Assembly: GCA_903820735.1 (NCBI GenBank)
Contig: CAIJIZ010000711.1
Span: 1-38,328 of the forward strand
Reading direction: 5' to 3'
Source: an uncultured Pirellula sp.
GTDB taxonomy: Bacteria; Planctomycetota; Planctomycetia; Pirellulales; Pirellulaceae
DNA length: 38,328 bases
Positions 3 to 25,265 of the stretch are shown here, piece after piece. The translations under genes were made by a program, and so were the position numbers. The notes under the pieces are model-generated. The model did not search any database. It saw only the letters and a list, made by a program, of their open reading frames with translations, and was not told the origin of the DNA. Numbering within the stretch: position 1 is the stretch's first letter; each line of letters starts with the position of its first letter.

Positions 3-117
3 CACCAATGGTAACCCGAACCGTCAGGGAGGAAGCTGCAGTGCACGCTCCATCGCCCATCAGCACGTTCCGCGTAAGATCCACCCCTCAATAATCCGCT
101 AAACCTTGGTAACTGCG
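3..117 (+). repeat. Dispersed repeat, family A copy
   Basis: This copy opens with the core ACCAATGGTAACCCGAACCG, continues through a CATCGCCCAT box, and ends in the tail with CCACCCCTCAATAATCCG and CTTGGTAACTGC. The same order recurs three times in tandem at about 6643-6980. It is a single copy here and carries no convincing reading frame. The element may continue to the left of the window. Confidence 0.85.
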
Positions 118-148
118 ACTAATGTAATACGCCAGCAATCCGCTCCTG

Positions 149-190
149 CCTCGTTGACACTTCGGGTTACCATTGCGTGGCCAACGGCCA
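149..190 (-). repeat. Inverted copy of family B repeat core with hairpin
   Basis: The reverse complement of 149-174 reads AATGGTAACCCGAAGTGTCA followed by ACGAGG, which is the family B core seen at 24250-24560. Next to it, 178-190 forms a small hairpin (TGGCC, loop AAC, GGCCA), like the GGCC-AAA-GGCC hairpins of the family B tails. A family A copy and an inverted family B core therefore face each other upstream of the first gene. The rest of 191-365 shows nothing I can name beyond the purine-rich stretch before the start at 366. Confidence 0.75.
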
Positions 191-3376: not shown

Positions 3377-4885
3377 TTAGTGAACTACTGCGGTAGCTTC
3401 GGTGCGTCCGAAAGCCAATTGCATGATACTCTGCTCGGTCATCTGTTCGCGAGCCAACTCACCCTTTACTCGCCCTTCGTGCATCACGTACGTCCGATCT
3501 GCCATCCCGAGGATCTCTTCCATCTCACTCGACACGAACAGAATCGCCGTACCTCGCTGAGCCAACTGCTCCATCAATCCGTAAATTTCTTGCTTGGCTC
3601 CGATATCGACTCCCCGCGTCGGCTCATCCAATAACAGGACCTTGGGATTCCTCATGATCCATTTGCCGAAAACGATCTTCTGCTGATTCCCTCCGGAAAG
3701 GAAAGCGGAAACTTGATTTAAGTGAGGTGTCTTTATCCGCAAAGCATTGACTTGCTCCTGGCCAGCTTTCTGCTCCGCTGCTCGCGAGAGTATCCCGTAA
3801 CGACTGACGTTTTCCATCGAAGCGAGTGTCAAGTTATCGCCGACGCTCATGGAAGTAACTAAACCCGTGTGACGACGGTCTTCGGGAACCAAAGCCAATC
3901 CGGAAGCGATCGAGGTTCGGATATTACTCGATGGAATTGCAACCCCATCGACTTGAATCTGCCCACCTAATACAGGTCGCATTCCCATGATCGATTCAAG
4001 CACTTCGGTCCGCCCTGCGCCGACCAAGCCTGCCATACCGACAATTTCACCAGCACGCACTTCGATGTTTACCGGATGCTCGGCTCTACCGAACACACGC
4101 ACATCCTTGAGCCGCAAGCGAACCTCGCCGGGCTCCTTAGGCACGTGCGGAAAATATCGATTCAACTCGCGTCCGACCATCGCATGCACCATGCGATCAT
4201 GCGTGATCTCGTGCTTCTGCAACGTCGCTGCATTCTGCCCGTCACGAAGCACTTCTACGCGATCGGACAATTCAGCGACCTCCGCTAACCGGTGAGAAAT
4301 GTACACAATCGACACCCCCTCCGATTTCAATTGCCGTATCAACTGAAAGAGCTTCTCCGACTCGTGTGCTGAGAGACTGCTCGTCGGCTCATCCATGATG
4401 ATCATGTTGGCATCTGTCGAGAGCGATTTGGCAATCTCCACCATCTGACGCTGCGCGATCGATAGCTTCTGCAACGAAGTACTCGACGGGATTTCAAGCC
4501 CCACACGTTTGAGAAACTCGTCGGCTCGCTGTCGCATCTGCCGCGATTGGATCATCCCCCAACGCGTCGGCTCGCGCCCAAGAAAAATATTCTCGGCTAC
4601 GGTTAAGTTATCCGCGAGATTCAACTCTTGGTGAATAAGCGAAATCCCAGCCGAGATCGCTTCGCTCGGATTCGCAAACCGTACCTGGCTACCCTTCCAC
4701 CACAACTCGCCAGAATCTTGCCCCTGAACCCCCGCAAGGATCTTCATCAAGGTGCTCTTACCCGCTCCGTTCTCGCCGATAACGCTCAAGACTTCGCCGG
4801 GCTCAACGTGCAGACTCACTCCCCGAAGCGCTTTGACTCCGGGGAATGATTTGGTGACATTTTCAACTCGCAGAATGCTTTCCAT
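3377..4885 (-). CDS. Sugar ABC transporter ATPase, RbsA/MglA-like, two domains
   Basis: Cytoplasmic ATPase energising the importer, with two fused nucleotide-binding domains in 502 residues, the normal RbsA/MglA size. Domain 1 has Walker A GENGAGKST at 37-45, the signature LSIAQRQMVEIA and Walker B MIIMDEPTSSLS. Domain 2 has a degenerate Walker A (GLVGAGRTE), the signature LSGGNQQKIVFGKW and Walker B VLLLDEPTRGVD. This pattern, with only the first site likely catalytic, is standard for the family. The ATG overlaps the stop codon of the binding-protein gene by one base (TGATG), which suggests translational coupling. The permease gene follows after 14 bp. Confidence 0.95.
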   Translation of the reverse strand: MESILRVENVTKSFPGVKALRGVSLHVEPGEVLSVIGENGAGKSTLMKILAGVQGQDSGELWWKGSQVRFANPSEAISAGISLIHQELNLADNLTVAENIFLGREPTRWGMIQSRQMRQRADEFLKRVGLEIPSSTSLQKLSIAQRQMVEIAKSLSTDANMIIMDEPTSSLSAHESEKLFQLIRQLKSEGVSIVYISHRLAEVAELSDRVEVLRDGQNAATLQKHEITHDRMVHAMVGRELNRYFPHVPKEPGEVRLRLKDVRVFGRAEHPVNIEVRAGEIVGMAGLVGAGRTEVLESIMGMRPVLGGQIQVDGVAIPSSNIRTSIASGLALVPEDRRHTGLVTSMSVGDNLTLASMENVSRYGILSRAAEQKAGQEQVNALRIKTPHLNQVSAFLSGGNQQKIVFGKWIMRNPKVLLLDEPTRGVDIGAKQEIYGLMEQLAQRGTAILFVSSEMEEILGMADRTYVMHEGRVKGELAREQMTEQSIMQLAFGRTEATAVVH

Positions 4886-6105
4886 CAGTTTGCCGCAGTT
4901 TCAAAACCTGGTGGCAATGGCTTGTCCGCCAACTCATCAATCACACCCCGCGATCGCTCTTGAGCATTGAGCACTTCAAGCTTCCCGACGAATATCATGA
5001 CCTTGCCTCCCTCGGGAATCGCTTGCTTGACAAGCTTCCCAGCTGCACGGCCGGCCAAGTAATTGCTAGTCCCCAAGTAAAACTTACGGTTCGACTTTGG
5101 AGCATCAGAATCTTGGCAAACTACCGCCATCTTCTCCGCTGCCATGTTCAACATGTCGACTTGATTCTCGGGATTGATCGGGGAAATCGCCAATCCATCG
5201 AACCCATTGTTCACCGCTTGCTCAATCGCTTGCTTCTGCTCGTCGACCGTTCCTTGGCTCGGGAAAGTCACTGCAGTGGTCGTGTTGAAAACGCCATCGG
5301 CCTTCTCGCAACCCTTTTGTGCTAAAACCCAAAACAAGTCAACGCTGTTGGTGATAAACGCTAACTTCGTCGCTTTCGACGTGTCATACGATTCGGAATC
5401 CGACTTGGGGATCGGTCCGTTCCCATCGCGGATCGCTTGAACTCCCGCATTGAACTCTTGAATGTTGTCGGCGGTTACGACCGAGTGAGGTACGTAAATC
5501 ATCTTGCTCTCAGGGACTTTGACCTCTTGGTTGCGAGCCATCGCTGCCAAGTATTCCACACTCTTGAAACCGAACAAATAGGGTTGCTGAGCAATCGTAC
5601 CGATAATCTTTCCATCGGCGATTCCCGCGAGCGTCGCTGGATGCTCGTCAAAACCAACAATCTTGACCTTGCCCGCCAATGAACGTGCTTCCAATGCCGA
5701 CAGAATCGCTGGAGGATTGTACGCCCACAATCCAACCATGCAGTTCACATCCGGATTCGAAACCAAAGCCGACTCGGCATTGCTCTTGGCAATCGCGTCG
5801 TCTTTGTTGTCGGTCATAATGTTGAGCACTTCATACTTGCCAATCTTCGCTGGCATCGAATACCCCACCCCAGGGATCACCGCTCCGGCACTCGCCGAAA
5901 CCACCGGCGCTGATTGCTTGGTATCAAACCCACCCGGCGCTCCATCCGCCGAACTAGGGACCTTCGCCGGCGGCTTAGATCCACTGTCACAACCCGCAAA
6001 CGGCATCGCAATTCCCGCAAACAATGCCAAAGCAACCCCGGCCCGCTTTTTGTTCAAGGCAGCCCAATCGGTTTTCCTGGAGTCTGTCACTACTGCTTTT
6101 TTCAT
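4885..6105 (-). CDS. Sugar-binding lipoprotein, RbsB-like, circularly permuted
   Basis: Periplasmic-binding-protein family 4 component of the importer, 406 residues from the chosen ATG at 6105. That start gives a basic MKKAVV N-terminus, a hydrophobic stretch and a lipobox-like MPFAGC with Cys39; an upstream ATG at 6231 would add 42 residues that do not look exported. The order of the two halves is unusual. Residues 88-228 (GKYEVLNIMTD..., GLWAYNPPAI, IVGFDEHP, GTIAQQPYLFG) correspond to the C-terminal half of RbsB. Residues 245-393 (KLAFITNS..., DGLAISPINPENQVDM, VVCQDSDAP, MIFVGK, AQERSRGVIDEL) correspond to the N-terminal half. By eye the ligand-position equivalents Asn130, Asp153, Gln173 and Asp332 are kept. 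The stop overlaps the ATPase ATG. Confidence 0.85.
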   Translation of the reverse strand: MKKAVVTDSRKTDWAALNKKRAGVALALFAGIAMPFAGCDSGSKPPAKVPSSADGAPGGFDTKQSAPVVSASAGAVIPGVGYSMPAKIGKYEVLNIMTDNKDDAIAKSNAESALVSNPDVNCMVGLWAYNPPAILSALEARSLAGKVKIVGFDEHPATLAGIADGKIIGTIAQQPYLFGFKSVEYLAAMARNQEVKVPESKMIYVPHSVVTADNIQEFNAGVQAIRDGNGPIPKSDSESYDTSKATKLAFITNSVDLFWVLAQKGCEKADGVFNTTTAVTFPSQGTVDEQKQAIEQAVNNGFDGLAISPINPENQVDMLNMAAEKMAVVCQDSDAPKSNRKFYLGTSNYLAGRAAGKLVKQAIPEGGKVMIFVGKLEVLNAQERSRGVIDELADKPLPPGFETAAN

Positions 6106-6421
6106 TTGAGGTACCTGCCGGATGATAGAAAGGAAAAACGTAAACGATTCAATGATCAAAACCACCGGGTTCGAATCCACAGATTCTAAGTGGAACAGCC
6201 ACCCACGCAACATCGGCCAACGGAAAAACACCCCGCGAAACCAGATTTGTGGCGTGAAACTGCTCCTTATAATTTACCAAGCCGAATAAGTTTCCAGGTA
6301 TTGCCCCACCATTGCAGTCCCAAGCCTTTTAATGCAATCAATCCAGACACAAAATAAAAAGCCAACTCCAAGCCCACGCCCCACCAGAAATCCTTGAACT
6401 CCAGATCCCCCTCGAAACCCC
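6106..6421. other. Intergenic region upstream of the ABC operon
   Basis: This 316-bp stretch separates the divergent binding-protein gene and the PSCyt1 remnant. I see no clear promoter hexamers or operator palindrome. The minus strand has a tryptophan-rich open frame ending at 6267 that I do not accept as a gene. Confidence 0.4.
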
Positions 6422-6610
6422 ATGCCCAATACCCCACCTGCAATTCTATCCCTTTCAGCCTCCCAGCTCTTTCTTTCAGCCTCCCAGCAACGATTGGTAT
6501 TCGCCATCCTAGCAATTCTCCTGGGATCCGACTCCTGGCAATCCAACAATTGCCAAGCCCAAGTCACGCTGGATTACAACCGAGATATCTGGCTGACGAT
6601 GGCCGGCGCA
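6422..6610 (+). pseudogene. Truncated PSCyt1-type (DUF1549/DUF1553) gene, 5' remnant
   Basis: From the ATG at 6422 the frame encodes a plausible export signal (QQRLVFAILAILLGSDSW, then NCQAQ). It is followed by VTLDYNRDI at about 6566-6589. LDYNRDI is the usual start of planctomycete PSCyt1 domains, where it continues as RPIL...CxxCHG. Here it continues as WLTMAGAP and runs straight into the dispersed repeat near 6606. No haem-binding CxxCH or downstream DUF1549/DUF1553 sequence follows in any frame before the HAD gene. The frame stays open to 6742 only because the repeats lack stops in it. I infer a gene cut down to its first 55-60 codons. The short motif is the only homology evidence. Confidence 0.55.
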
Positions 6611-7011
6611 CCAATGGTATCCCCAACCGTCAGGGAGGAACGCACCAATGGTAACCCGAACCGTCAGGGAGGATGCTGCAGTACACGCTCCATCGCCCAT
6701 ACGCACGCTCCGCGTAAAACCCACCCCTCAATAATCCGATAAACCTCGGCAACGCACCAATGGTAACCCGAACCGTCAGGGAGGATGCTGCAGTACACGC
6801 TCCATCGCCCATCAGCACGCTCCGCGTAAGATCCACCGCTCAATAATCCGATAAACCTCGGCAACGCACCAATGGTAACCCGAACCGTCAGGGAGGAAGC
6901 TGCAGTACACGCTCCATCGCCCATACGCACGCTCTGCGTAAGATCCACCCCTCCATCATCCGATAAACCTCGGTAACTGCAACCAATGGGAACCCGATCC
7001 GTCAGCGAGGA
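6606..7011 (+). repeat. Tandem array of family A repeats
   Basis: Five cores of the type CACCAATGGTAACCCGAACC are present: a 35-bp partial copy from 6606, full copies from 6643, 6754 and 6867, and a degenerate copy from 6980 (CCAATGGGAACCCGATCCG). Spacing between full copies is 111-113 bp. Each full copy carries the CGTCAGGGAGG box, a GCTGCAGTACACGCTCCATC segment and a tail with CAATAATCCGATAAACCTCG. Several frames stay open through the array on both strands, but none shows protein-like character or a credible start. No transposase or terminal inverted repeat is visible within it. Confidence 0.9.
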
Positions 7012-23543: not shown

Positions 23544-24191
23544 GTGAAAAAAACTCCACGCGAAGTCGTCACGCTTCGAATCATCGCCGGCTCCCTCCGC
23601 TCCCGACGCCTTCAATTCGAATGCGACCCTCGAACTCGTCCAATGAAAGACCGAACTCGTGAAGCGGTGATGAACCTTCTAGGTGGTACGCTCGAAAACC
23701 ATCTCGCGTTCGACCTTTTTGGCGGGTCGGGCGTCATGGCTTTCGAAGCCATTTCGCGAGGAGCCTCGCATGCCTTCACCTGGGAAATCCTCAAATCAGG
23801 CGCACAAGCGATCCAAAACTTCGCACAAACTCTTCAAATACAATCTCAAATCACCGTGCTGCACGAAGATGTCCTGCGATGGTCCAACAACCTCGAACAA
23901 AACCTAGAATTCCTCGACCTACCATCCATCCCGCCATCCTCCATACCTACTGCCGAACAACCAACAACCGCCCCCTGGGTCCTTTTCTGCTGCCCCCCCT
24001 ATGCCTTGTGGGAAACCCAAGGACAAGAAATAAAGGACATGATCAAGAAATGGATACAAGCCGCTCCTGCTCGCTCCCTTTTCGCCATCGAACTTGAAGT
24101 CAACACCGACCTGCAATGGCTCCCGACCGACTTAGAGTGGGACATGCGAAAATACACCCCAGCCCTGATCGCCATCGGACAAAAAGATTAG
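23544..24191 (+). CDS. rsmD: RsmD-family 16S rRNA (guanine-N2)-methyltransferase
   Basis: RsmD methylates G966 (E. coli numbering) of 16S rRNA using S-adenosylmethionine. The family signature RIIAGSLRSRRLQFE...RTRPMKDRTREAVMNLL is at the N-terminus. SAM motif I is AFDLFGGSGVMAFEAISRGA. Motif IV, usually DPPY or DPPF, reads CCPPY at residues 149-153, so the polar first residue has become Cys. Length 215 is close to the usual 190-200. The start is GTG at 23544. It is divergent from the PPIase-like gene. The assignment is good, though with the altered motif I would not claim normal activity. Confidence 0.85.
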   Translation: MKKTPREVVTLRIIAGSLRSRRLQFECDPRTRPMKDRTREAVMNLLGGTLENHLAFDLFGGSGVMAFEAISRGASHAFTWEILKSGAQAIQNFAQTLQIQSQITVLHEDVLRWSNNLEQNLEFLDLPSIPPSSIPTAEQPTTAPWVLFCCPPYALWETQGQEIKDMIKKWIQAAPARSLFAIELEVNTDLQWLPTDLEWDMRKYTPALIAIGQKD

Positions 24192-24210: not shown

Positions 24211-24312
24211 GCCTGTCTAAATGGTAACCCGAACCGTCAACAAGGCCTGTCTAAATGGTAACCCGAAGTGTCAACGAGGCCTGACTAAATGGTAACCCGA
24301 AGTGTCAACGAG
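24211..24312 (+). repeat. Three 34-bp tandem repeats (family B core)
   Basis: Three 34-bp units start at 24211, 24245 and 24279, each opening GCCTGTCTAAATGGTAACCC (GCCTGACTAA in the third). The first has the ACCGTCAACAAG variant, and the other two have AGTGTCAACGAG. The third unit leads directly into the first long family B copy. They lie just 19 bp after the rsmD stop. Confidence 0.9.
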
Positions 24313-24676
24313 GGAGCTACAGCACACGCCCCATCGCCCATCGGCGCGGCCAATAATCCGCAACCACCTCGCTCACGCGTCGGACAGCCTTTCCGTGGCC
24401 AAAGGCCACGTCAACCAATGGTAACCCGAAGTGTCAACGAGGGAGCTACAGCACACGCTCCATCGCCCATAAGAAACCAACCATCAAACCGCTACTACCT
24501 CGCTCACGCGTCGGACTACCATTCCGTGGCAAAGGCTACGTCAACCAATGGTAACCCGAAGTGTCAACGAGGGAGCTACAGCACACGCTCCATCGCCCAT
24601 CGGCGCGGCCAATAATCCGCAACCACCTCGCTCATGCGTCGGAAAAACCATTCCGTGGCCAAAGGCCAGGGAAGCG
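24279..24676 (+). repeat. Three ~130-bp family B repeats with hairpins
   Basis: Three copies of the core AATGGTAACCCGAAGTGTCA start at about 24288, 24417 and 24547, so the period is 129-130 bp. Each is followed by GGAGCTACAGCACACGC and a CATCGCCCAT box, then a tail containing ACCTCGCTCACGCGTCGGA. GGAGC/GCTCC can pair at 24442-24461. The tails hold hairpins: CGTGGCC-AAA-GGCCACG at 24394-24410, CGTGGC-AAAG-GCTACG at 24525-24540 (one G-U), and TGGCC-AAA-GGCCA at 24656-24668. The rest of 24192-24795 carries no gene. Confidence 0.9.
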
Positions 24677-24778: not shown

Positions 24779-24797
24779 AATCAGGAAACGCCTGATT
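24779..24797 (-). terminator. Hairpin at the ferredoxin 3' end
   Basis: On the minus strand AATCAGG and CCTGATT form a perfect 7-bp stem with a 5-nt loop (24779-24797), overlapping the ferredoxin stop codon. The sequence after it is AT-rich (TTTATTC). It is a plausible weak intrinsic terminator. Confidence 0.5.
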
Positions 24798-25074
24798 AAG
24801 AATCCGCCAAAGGCTTCTTCTTCTCTGTAATTACCTTCGACTGCGGCGACATCTCTGCATTGAGTTCGATGTAGCTCTTCCACTCAGCCGGAACGTTATC
24901 CTCATGGAAAATCGCTTCCACTGGACATTCGGCAACGCACGCTTCGCAGTCGATGCACTCTTCGGGGTGGATGTAAAGCATCTTGTCCCCTTCGTAAAAA
25001 CACTCAACAGGACAAACTACGACGCAATCTGTATAGCGGCATCCTACGCAAGGTTGAGTAACAACGTGAGCCAT
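24796..25074 (-). CDS. fdxA: 7Fe (3Fe-4S/4Fe-4S) ferredoxin
   Basis: Small cytoplasmic electron carrier of the FdxA type, 92 residues. The N-terminal block VVTQPCVGCRYTDCVVVCPV has Cys9, 12, 17 and 21. The second block, ECIDCEACVAECPVEAI, has Cys40, 43, 46 and 50. The arrangement matches 7Fe ferredoxins with one [3Fe-4S] and one [4Fe-4S] cluster. The start at 25074 (MAHVVTQPC) is the family's usual start; the open frame to 25209 is not part of the protein. It is divergent from the region-2 sigma gene. Redox partners cannot be deduced from the context. Confidence 0.93.
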   Translation of the reverse strand: MAHVVTQPCVGCRYTDCVVVCPVECFYEGDKMLYIHPEECIDCEACVAECPVEAIFHEDNVPAEWKSYIELNAEMSPQSKVITEKKKPLADS

Positions 25075-25265
25075 GGCTGCGAGAACCTCTCCAACACTCG
25101 GAAACAATAAACAAAGGAAACGGAGGGCATGGTAGGCCCCAAGCCCTACAATGTCAAGGAACACTCGACCGTTCTGCCCCCGCTCGCTTGCTGTCGACTT
25201 ACCTTGCATCTAGAATTTAATCAATCCGCAAGTCCACTTCGGGTTCCACCCAAATTTCGCACCCC

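Follow-up and report, generated by a model that had tools for sequence, protein, structure and literature searches.

The repeats dispersed through the window, the 38,328-nucleotide stretch of DNA analyzed here, are, with a probability of roughly 0.88 as judged from sequence, paired REPs, non-autonomous elements of the BIME/REPIN type that belong to a planctomycete class 3 REPtron, with its protein as the likely mover. The window is contig C711 of the assembly designated G000 (5.9 Mb in 842 contigs). An earlier note on this DNA had taken the repeat for a REP-like, non-autonomous element amplified both across the genome and locally in tandem; sequence comparisons argue for that view and suggest the movement that it implies, so that the elements are probably mobile. 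The kind of enzyme involved is known, and this branch of it is hardly studied.

Copies and anatomy of the element

A search of the window with the core pattern, allowing up to three mismatches, yields 12 matches (Table 1) compared with none in 100 dinucleotide shuffles, and the CACGCTCCATCGCCCAT box, with up to two mismatches, is found seven times compared with a chance mean of 0.01. The core repeats and arrays described in the earlier note are thus real. The A array has a period of 112 bp (3.3 copies at 6639-7011) and its units match one another at 93%; the B array has a period of 130 bp (2.9 copies at 24288-24668) with 85% matches overall. The tails, which had been described as constant within each family, are so only roughly, given that the middle B unit deviates, with 63% ungapped identity. 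Both arrays open with 34-bp units that consist of the core without a spacer (2.0 copies at 6607-6673 and 3.0 copies at 24211-24313), which may be a trace of the way the arrays started or of erosion. An Rfam scan of the window returned two tRNAs.

The core is by no means confined to the window. A wide version of the pattern finds at least 178 copies in G000, on both strands, compared with a single match of the reversed pattern, used as a control, in 27 genomes. G000 contains 66 exact copies of the 14-mer AATGGTAACCCGAA (44 forward, 22 reverse), on 29 contigs, and none of its reversed control. Contig ends are close to the cores in most of the 30 sequences sampled from G000, those that contain the exact 14-mer: in 28 of them a core is found no more than 250 bp from such an end, and 98 of their 130 cores are at most 500 bp away. 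This crowding indicates that the assembly breaks at the repeats, so that the counts are lower bounds and underestimate the number of copies; more copies lie on contigs beyond the sample, for example, C276, C402, C552, C701 and C781.

The complete element at the left end of the window consists of an A core, a spacer with the CACGCTCCATCGCCCAT box and an inverted B core, and its 14-bp perfect terminal repeats are AATGGTAACCCGAA. Full-length copies of it are found on G005:C463 (92% identity), G000:C304 (88%) and G000:C458 (87%), and the near-full-length matches elsewhere range from 74% to 92%. The cores at 1-60 and 149-174, originally counted as two dispersed copies, are genuine but constitute the two ends of one element; likewise, A and B, originally regarded as separate families, are instead the left and right ends of this paired element. 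Beyond the B end, a linker, mostly with a GGCC-NNN-GGCC hairpin, leads to the next A core. The B array is built to the same design: its tails hold degenerate inverted partner REPs with GC stems, located between the B cores (Table 1). The tail hairpin that had been reported to be kept by a G-U pair is present, and the first B unit carries its fully paired version. In the sampled G000 sequences, the core starts of 32 convergent pairs are spaced by 70-72 (13 pairs), 131-133 (13 pairs), 97-99 (5 pairs) or 81 (1 pair) positions. As in BIMEs and REPINs, the repeating unit comprises two inverted REPs, with 59 inverted neighbors within 200 bp. The GT[AG]G foot of canonical GTAG REPs is absent from the window copies, in which the bases preceding the hairpin are GGTAACCCGA; the core patterns used for the broader counts already include this foot.

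Table 1. Repeat features of the window (positions are those of the whole stretch)
Feature	Positions	Strand	Basis
Complete paired element, A end to inverted B end, 168 bp	7-174	+	full-length copies elsewhere
A-type REP core with CC/GG inner stem and GTCA loop	7-32	+	pattern match
Right end of the element, a B-type REP core with GT/AC inner stem	149-174	-	pattern match
Linker hairpin TGGCC-AAC-GGCCA just beyond the B end	178-190	.	read from sequence; similar linkers elsewhere
A-type core of the first 34-bp unit, 2 mismatches	6613-6638	+	pattern, tandem repeat
A-type core, array unit 1	6647-6672	+	pattern, alignment, tandem repeat
A-type core, array unit 2	6759-6784	+	pattern, alignment, tandem repeat
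A-type core, array unit 3	6871-6896	+	pattern, alignment, tandem repeat
Degenerate A-like core closing the A array	6985-7010	+	pattern, 2 mismatches
Core of a 34-bp unit, inner stem broken (CC/AC)	24220-24245	+	pattern, stem count
B-type core, 34-bp unit	24254-24279	+	pattern, tandem repeat
B-type core, 130-bp unit 1	24288-24313	+	pattern, alignment, tandem repeat
Inverted partner REP hairpin with GC/GC stem and GTGA loop; GGTAACC upstream of it altered	24367-24383	-	
Linker hairpin CGTGGCC-AAA-GGCCACG	24394-24410	.	sequence, predicted fold
B-type core, unit 2	24417-24442	+	pattern, alignment
Inverted partner REP hairpin, GC/GC	24498-24514	-	
Linker hairpin with one G-U pair	24525-24540	.	sequence
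B-type core, unit 3	24547-24572	+	pattern, alignment
Linker hairpin of unit 3, shortened	24656-24668	.	sequence

Hairpin covariation and the pairing of inverted neighbors

The core itself is a covarying hairpin that consists of a CCGA foot, a 2-bp inner stem, a GTNA loop, a bulge and an outer CC:GG pairing. The inner stem comes in four versions (GT/AC, CC/GG, GC/GC and AC/GT) and is Watson-Crick paired in 115 of the 120 copies that were picked from the 30 G000 sequences by the anchor GGTAACCCGA only, with no selection for the stem. A hairpin-shaped pattern retrieves 130 cores, 128 of them paired (55 GT/AC, 54 CC/GG, 14 GC/GC and 5 AC/GT) and 2 unpaired. In the scanned loci of the genus, 29 distinct cores account for 210 occurrences, of which 204 are paired; the occurrences include some double counts from a few overlapping loci (for example, L042/L085, L051/L090 and L056/L074), which leave the 29 distinct cores unaffected. 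Among these 29, the fraction of paired cells (97.4% compared with 86.0% after shuffling), the number of cells with both-sided changes (14 compared with 3.7) and the covariation score (0.386 compared with 0.158, with slid versions at 0.222 or less) were each matched by none of 500 shuffles. The two remaining measures are at the shuffle level because only two pairs vary: there are 2 pairs with a both-sided change, compared with 1.7 after shuffling (a value reached in 365 of 500 shuffles), and 5 further pair types, compared with 3.9 (reached in 101 of 500). Single 29-nt ends fold no better than shuffled sequences (z of 0.11 and 0.69), and because local folding energy alone fails to support the short hairpin, the case for it rests on covariation. 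The complete element does fold better than shuffles (z of -3.0; 4 of 200 as good), owing to its 14-bp outer arms, and the swapped inner-stem bases are unpaired between the arms and the GTCA step. The structural conservation anticipated across copies is thus found in the core. For the tail hairpins the picture is mixed: among 27 linkers inspected by eye, L027 and L031 show both-sided changes from G-C to A-T, but L010 and one of those in L017 break that pair.

Inverted neighbors avoid sharing an inner stem. Within 200 bp in G000, none of the 59 inverted neighbors have the same inner stem, compared with a mean of 21.8, and never fewer than 10, in 2000 shuffles of the labels, whereas same-strand neighbors share the stem in 32 of 33 cases (shuffle mean of 12.2). 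In a second species, G001, where the count took in 100 of the 102 copies, the respective values are 0 of 48 (shuffle mean of 22.5, never below 9) and 15 of 16 (mean of 7.5). The effective sample sizes are smaller than 59 and 48 because array units descend from each other. This heterodimer rule holds in G000 and G001 but is not general, as homodimers were seen by eye elsewhere in the genus, among the REPs beside the G014 gene and the listed CACGACGCG REPs of G023.

A strict rule of no shared stem between inverted neighbors looks like a new point. According to the accessible text of PMC3733652, many REP families favor heterodimers, for which there is 'no obvious explanation'; shielding from SbcCD and similar enzymes has been suggested. 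A possible, if rather doubtful, interpretation is that the stem swap is a code, that is, a means of having a two-ended unit with ends that the enzyme could tell apart and that would not make up a single, perfect palindrome exposed to cutting by the cell. Each end would still offer the class 3 enzyme a hairpin of its own, and internal loops in the end-to-end stem would result from the swap. If this is the case, class 3 would be a real intermediate between the two-ended IS200/IS605 elements and single REPs. The strictness of the rule should allow the reason for homodimer avoidance in REP pairs to be tested cleanly.

The transposase and the REP types of the genus

The earlier note had expected a REP-associated transposase. 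A search of G000 with the Y1_Tnp profile (PF01797) detects one gene at E ≤ 0.001 (C304:16533-17006, 158 aa), which sits among the copies, flanked by elements on both sides. The match is borderline, at 23 bits in one search and 22.9 compared with a cut-off of 23 in another, and the NCBIfam transpos_IS200 model scores 19.7 bits against a cut-off of 55. In an alignment of the gene with 23 relatives, H87, H89, Y147 and Q152 are invariant, so that both histidines of the HuH motif (NHMH in the G000 protein) and the Y----Q motif are present in all 24 rows, and the tyrosine motif of the Y---NP type is not found. The alignment includes 22 of the 27 rows of the genus search and two of three further loci, the excluded sequences being fragments or broken copies (L067, L071, L073, L074 and L076) and L090, apparently the L051 gene a second time. 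The three relatives for which a name was obtained are metagenome assemblies of Planctomycetaceae or Planctomycetota.

The predicted model of a relative with 75% identity (pLDDT 69.3, pTM 0.67, built from three sequences) has the Y1 transposase fold of the IS200/IS605 family. Foldseek places it nearest to the ISDra2 transposase (2xm3, E of 1.2e-4), with 4er8, a RAYT bound to a REP hairpin, at E of 6.2e-4; a second structure aligner gives Z scores of 13.1 for a Sulfolobus transposase, 13.0 for IS608 (2vju) and 9.7 for 4er8. A profile search of the PDB gave no sequence match up to E of 1. By its sequence, the G000 protein appears to fit the published class 3 TnpA-Y1 group (PMC6006769) and not the classical GTAG RAYTs.

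Relatives of the transposase are encoded in 18 of the 27 genomes of the genus, and the type of REP follows the clade of the protein. The G000 gene falls within a nine-gene clade (clade 1; support 100/99), and each of these nine genes, but none of the 15 others, has a CCGA core at a distance of 600 bp or less. Cores with a CC[G/C]A foot are found on both sides of six clade 1 genes and only downstream of L054, L055 and L092. The flanking CnGA foot that characterizes class 3 is found in clade 1, and it fails, as judged by eye, in some other clades of the genus. A CACGACGCG core adjoins all three genes of a second clade (support 100/98) and none of the 21 others. Both patterns were drawn after the flanks had been seen, so that presence within the own clade is partly by construction and absence elsewhere is the telling part. 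Two REP types that track two protein clades within one genus make recognition testable by partner swap.

Kinship between genomes ignored, all 16 genomes with the core have a relative of the transposase, the nine genomes without a relative have no core, and G013 and G040 have a relative without the core. The five highest core counts (38-178) belong to genomes with a clade 1 gene. Clade 1 cores are also present where no clade 1 gene was found (36 in G020, 24 each in G007 and G023, 10 in G002, 6 in G024, 5 each in G005 and G015 and 1 in G003), and G041 has one core and a broken gene. Similarly, CACGACGCG cores occur in genomes in which no gene of the corresponding clade was found (163 in G020, 8 in G021 and 1 each in G006 and G014). 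Such cores may be relics, or they may reflect gaps in the assembly or the misplacement of contigs. Matches to the second REP type, CACGACGCGNNAGCNAGTG, number 636 in G023, where the listed inverted neighbors are often identical, and 163 in G020, in which a gene of the matching clade was not found. By eye, the flanks of other transposase clades (L057-L072) contain additional REP-like types, the stems of which are longer and rich in GC, such as those around GGGCGCNAGCCC or GGCGCTAGCCGCC.

Genomic placement, alternatives and known systems

The 24-kb array lies between two convergent genes, one of the Cons_hypoth95 family (23544-24191) and one encoding 4Fe-4S domains (24796-25209). In nine other genomes (those with both genes on the examined stretch, among the 24 others that match the query gene), the gap between the same genes is 9-325 bp long and contains no core, compared with 610 bp and six cores in the window. 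The array is absent from the matching gap in these nine relatives, which are too distant to show the exact target. Only 1 of 130 cores is located inside an ORF of at least 150 aa, although such ORFs, counted where not cut by contig ends, occupy a fraction of 0.78 of these sequences. The comparisons revealed neither an excision product nor a target site, nor any insertion that was new between strains.

In each unit a spacer lies between an A REP and its inverted B partner, and linkers with a third hairpin join one unit to the next. Under the preferred reading, binding, cutting, choice of strand, movement and array growth would proceed as follows: the class 3 HuH/Tyr protein encoded on C304 would bind the folded single strand, and its conserved tyrosine would cut near the foot and rejoin the ends; cut-and-rejoin reactions would copy or move pairs into intergenic DNA, and recombination or slippage between units would then generate the tandem arrays. 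It is conceivable, at very low odds, that the elements are MITEs, with the 14-bp AATGGTAACCCGAA repeats serving as duplex terminal inverted repeats for a DDE transposase and the Y1 gene as a passenger: the two ends of the element at 7-174 are 83% complementary over 30 nt, and the whole folds as one long hairpin. However, the ends differ at the inner-stem bases and yet each keeps its own pairing (the 115 of 120 copies above), so that the local hairpin, rather than end-to-end identity, seems to be under selection; moreover, the REP type tracks the clade of the Y1 protein, and inspection by eye of this one element revealed no evident direct repeat at its ends.

That the host maintains the elements, as terminators, mRNA ends or sites for nucleoid proteins, with the Y1 gene linked to them only historically, is likewise highly improbable. 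Such roles of REPs are named in the accessible text of PMC3733652, and the near-exclusion of cores from ORFs, the position of one array between convergent genes and the linker hairpin within the predicted fold would all fit them; against this stand the lack of the array in the corresponding intergenic gap of nine relatives, the 9 of 27 genomes with neither the gene nor the core, and the concentration of the top five core counts in genomes with a clade 1 gene. A secondary host role might nevertheless exist. Tandem duplication and gene conversion alone, from a few founding sites and with no transposition, has a negligible probability: arrays are common and the A units are closely matched, but 178 copies on both strands, with the exact 14-mer alone on 29 contigs and a cluster around the sole transposase gene found, are hard to derive in this manner.

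As far as the accessible text of Quentin et al. 2018 (PMC6006769) goes, class 3 TnpA-Y1 proteins are described as REPtron-like (putative) and share with the system examined here the HuH motif in the form NHxH, the Y----Q motif, the occurrence in Planctomycetes, atypical flanking structures with a 5' CnGA foot and a high copy number. The pairing rule, the covariation and the match between REP type and clade within the class are absent from that text, which considers class 3 rare (<0.3% of species), in contrast to the 18 of 27 genomes with a relative in this genus. A word search of the available main text of PMC12306157 did not find Planctomycetes named, and no later paper on class 3 was found in the open-licence literature. 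The class 2 RAYT/REP systems, with their BIMEs and REPINs, resemble the present one, in the parts of PMC2817692, PMC3116915 and PMC8266576 that are accessible, in the usually single, REP-flanked gene, the inverted pairs, tandem arrays made of two alternating REP types (PMC3116915), an irregular stem in one group and the coevolution of RAYTs and REPs (PMC2817692); the E. coli protein cuts single-stranded REPs and there requires a bulge in the stem (PMC8266576). Unlike class 2, the elements described here have no GTAG or GTGG foot, a Y----Q instead of a Y---NP motif and an inner stem of only 2 bp. The predicted protein fold is shared with IS200/IS605 elements (IS608 and ISDra2), and the Y----Q motif is related to class 1 according to the accessible text of PMC6006769; unlike these elements, the many copies found here are devoid of a gene and have inverted REPs as their two ends. 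The CGTC-tagged REPs, as presented in the accessible text of PMC3733652, also have short stems and inverted dimers, with heterodimers favored in some families, and some of the cores contain GACG, which by our own reading is CGTC on the opposite strand; CGTC REPs are reported to lack a dedicated transposase, unlike the present cores, which have one adjoining.

For the 6.6-kb array, synteny through the gene at 4885-6231 yields distant matches, the best of which, in G022 and G024, span part of the protein at 39-41% identity; the same query also matched a 27-residue piece at 96% on G005:C463. On that contig (L038, 274-4123), a PSCyt1/PSCyt2/PSD1 gene and the gene downstream of it, presumably DUF1501-like, are both whole and are followed by an A array of their own; the contig may be misplaced in its bin. 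At 6422-6606, the window retains only the 5' stub of the PSCyt1/PSCyt2/PSD1 gene, fused to ∼20 bp of the downstream gene and then to the A array, and the two sequences are 93.7% identical over the 441 bp aligned before the break. In the window, a deletion seems to end at the A array.
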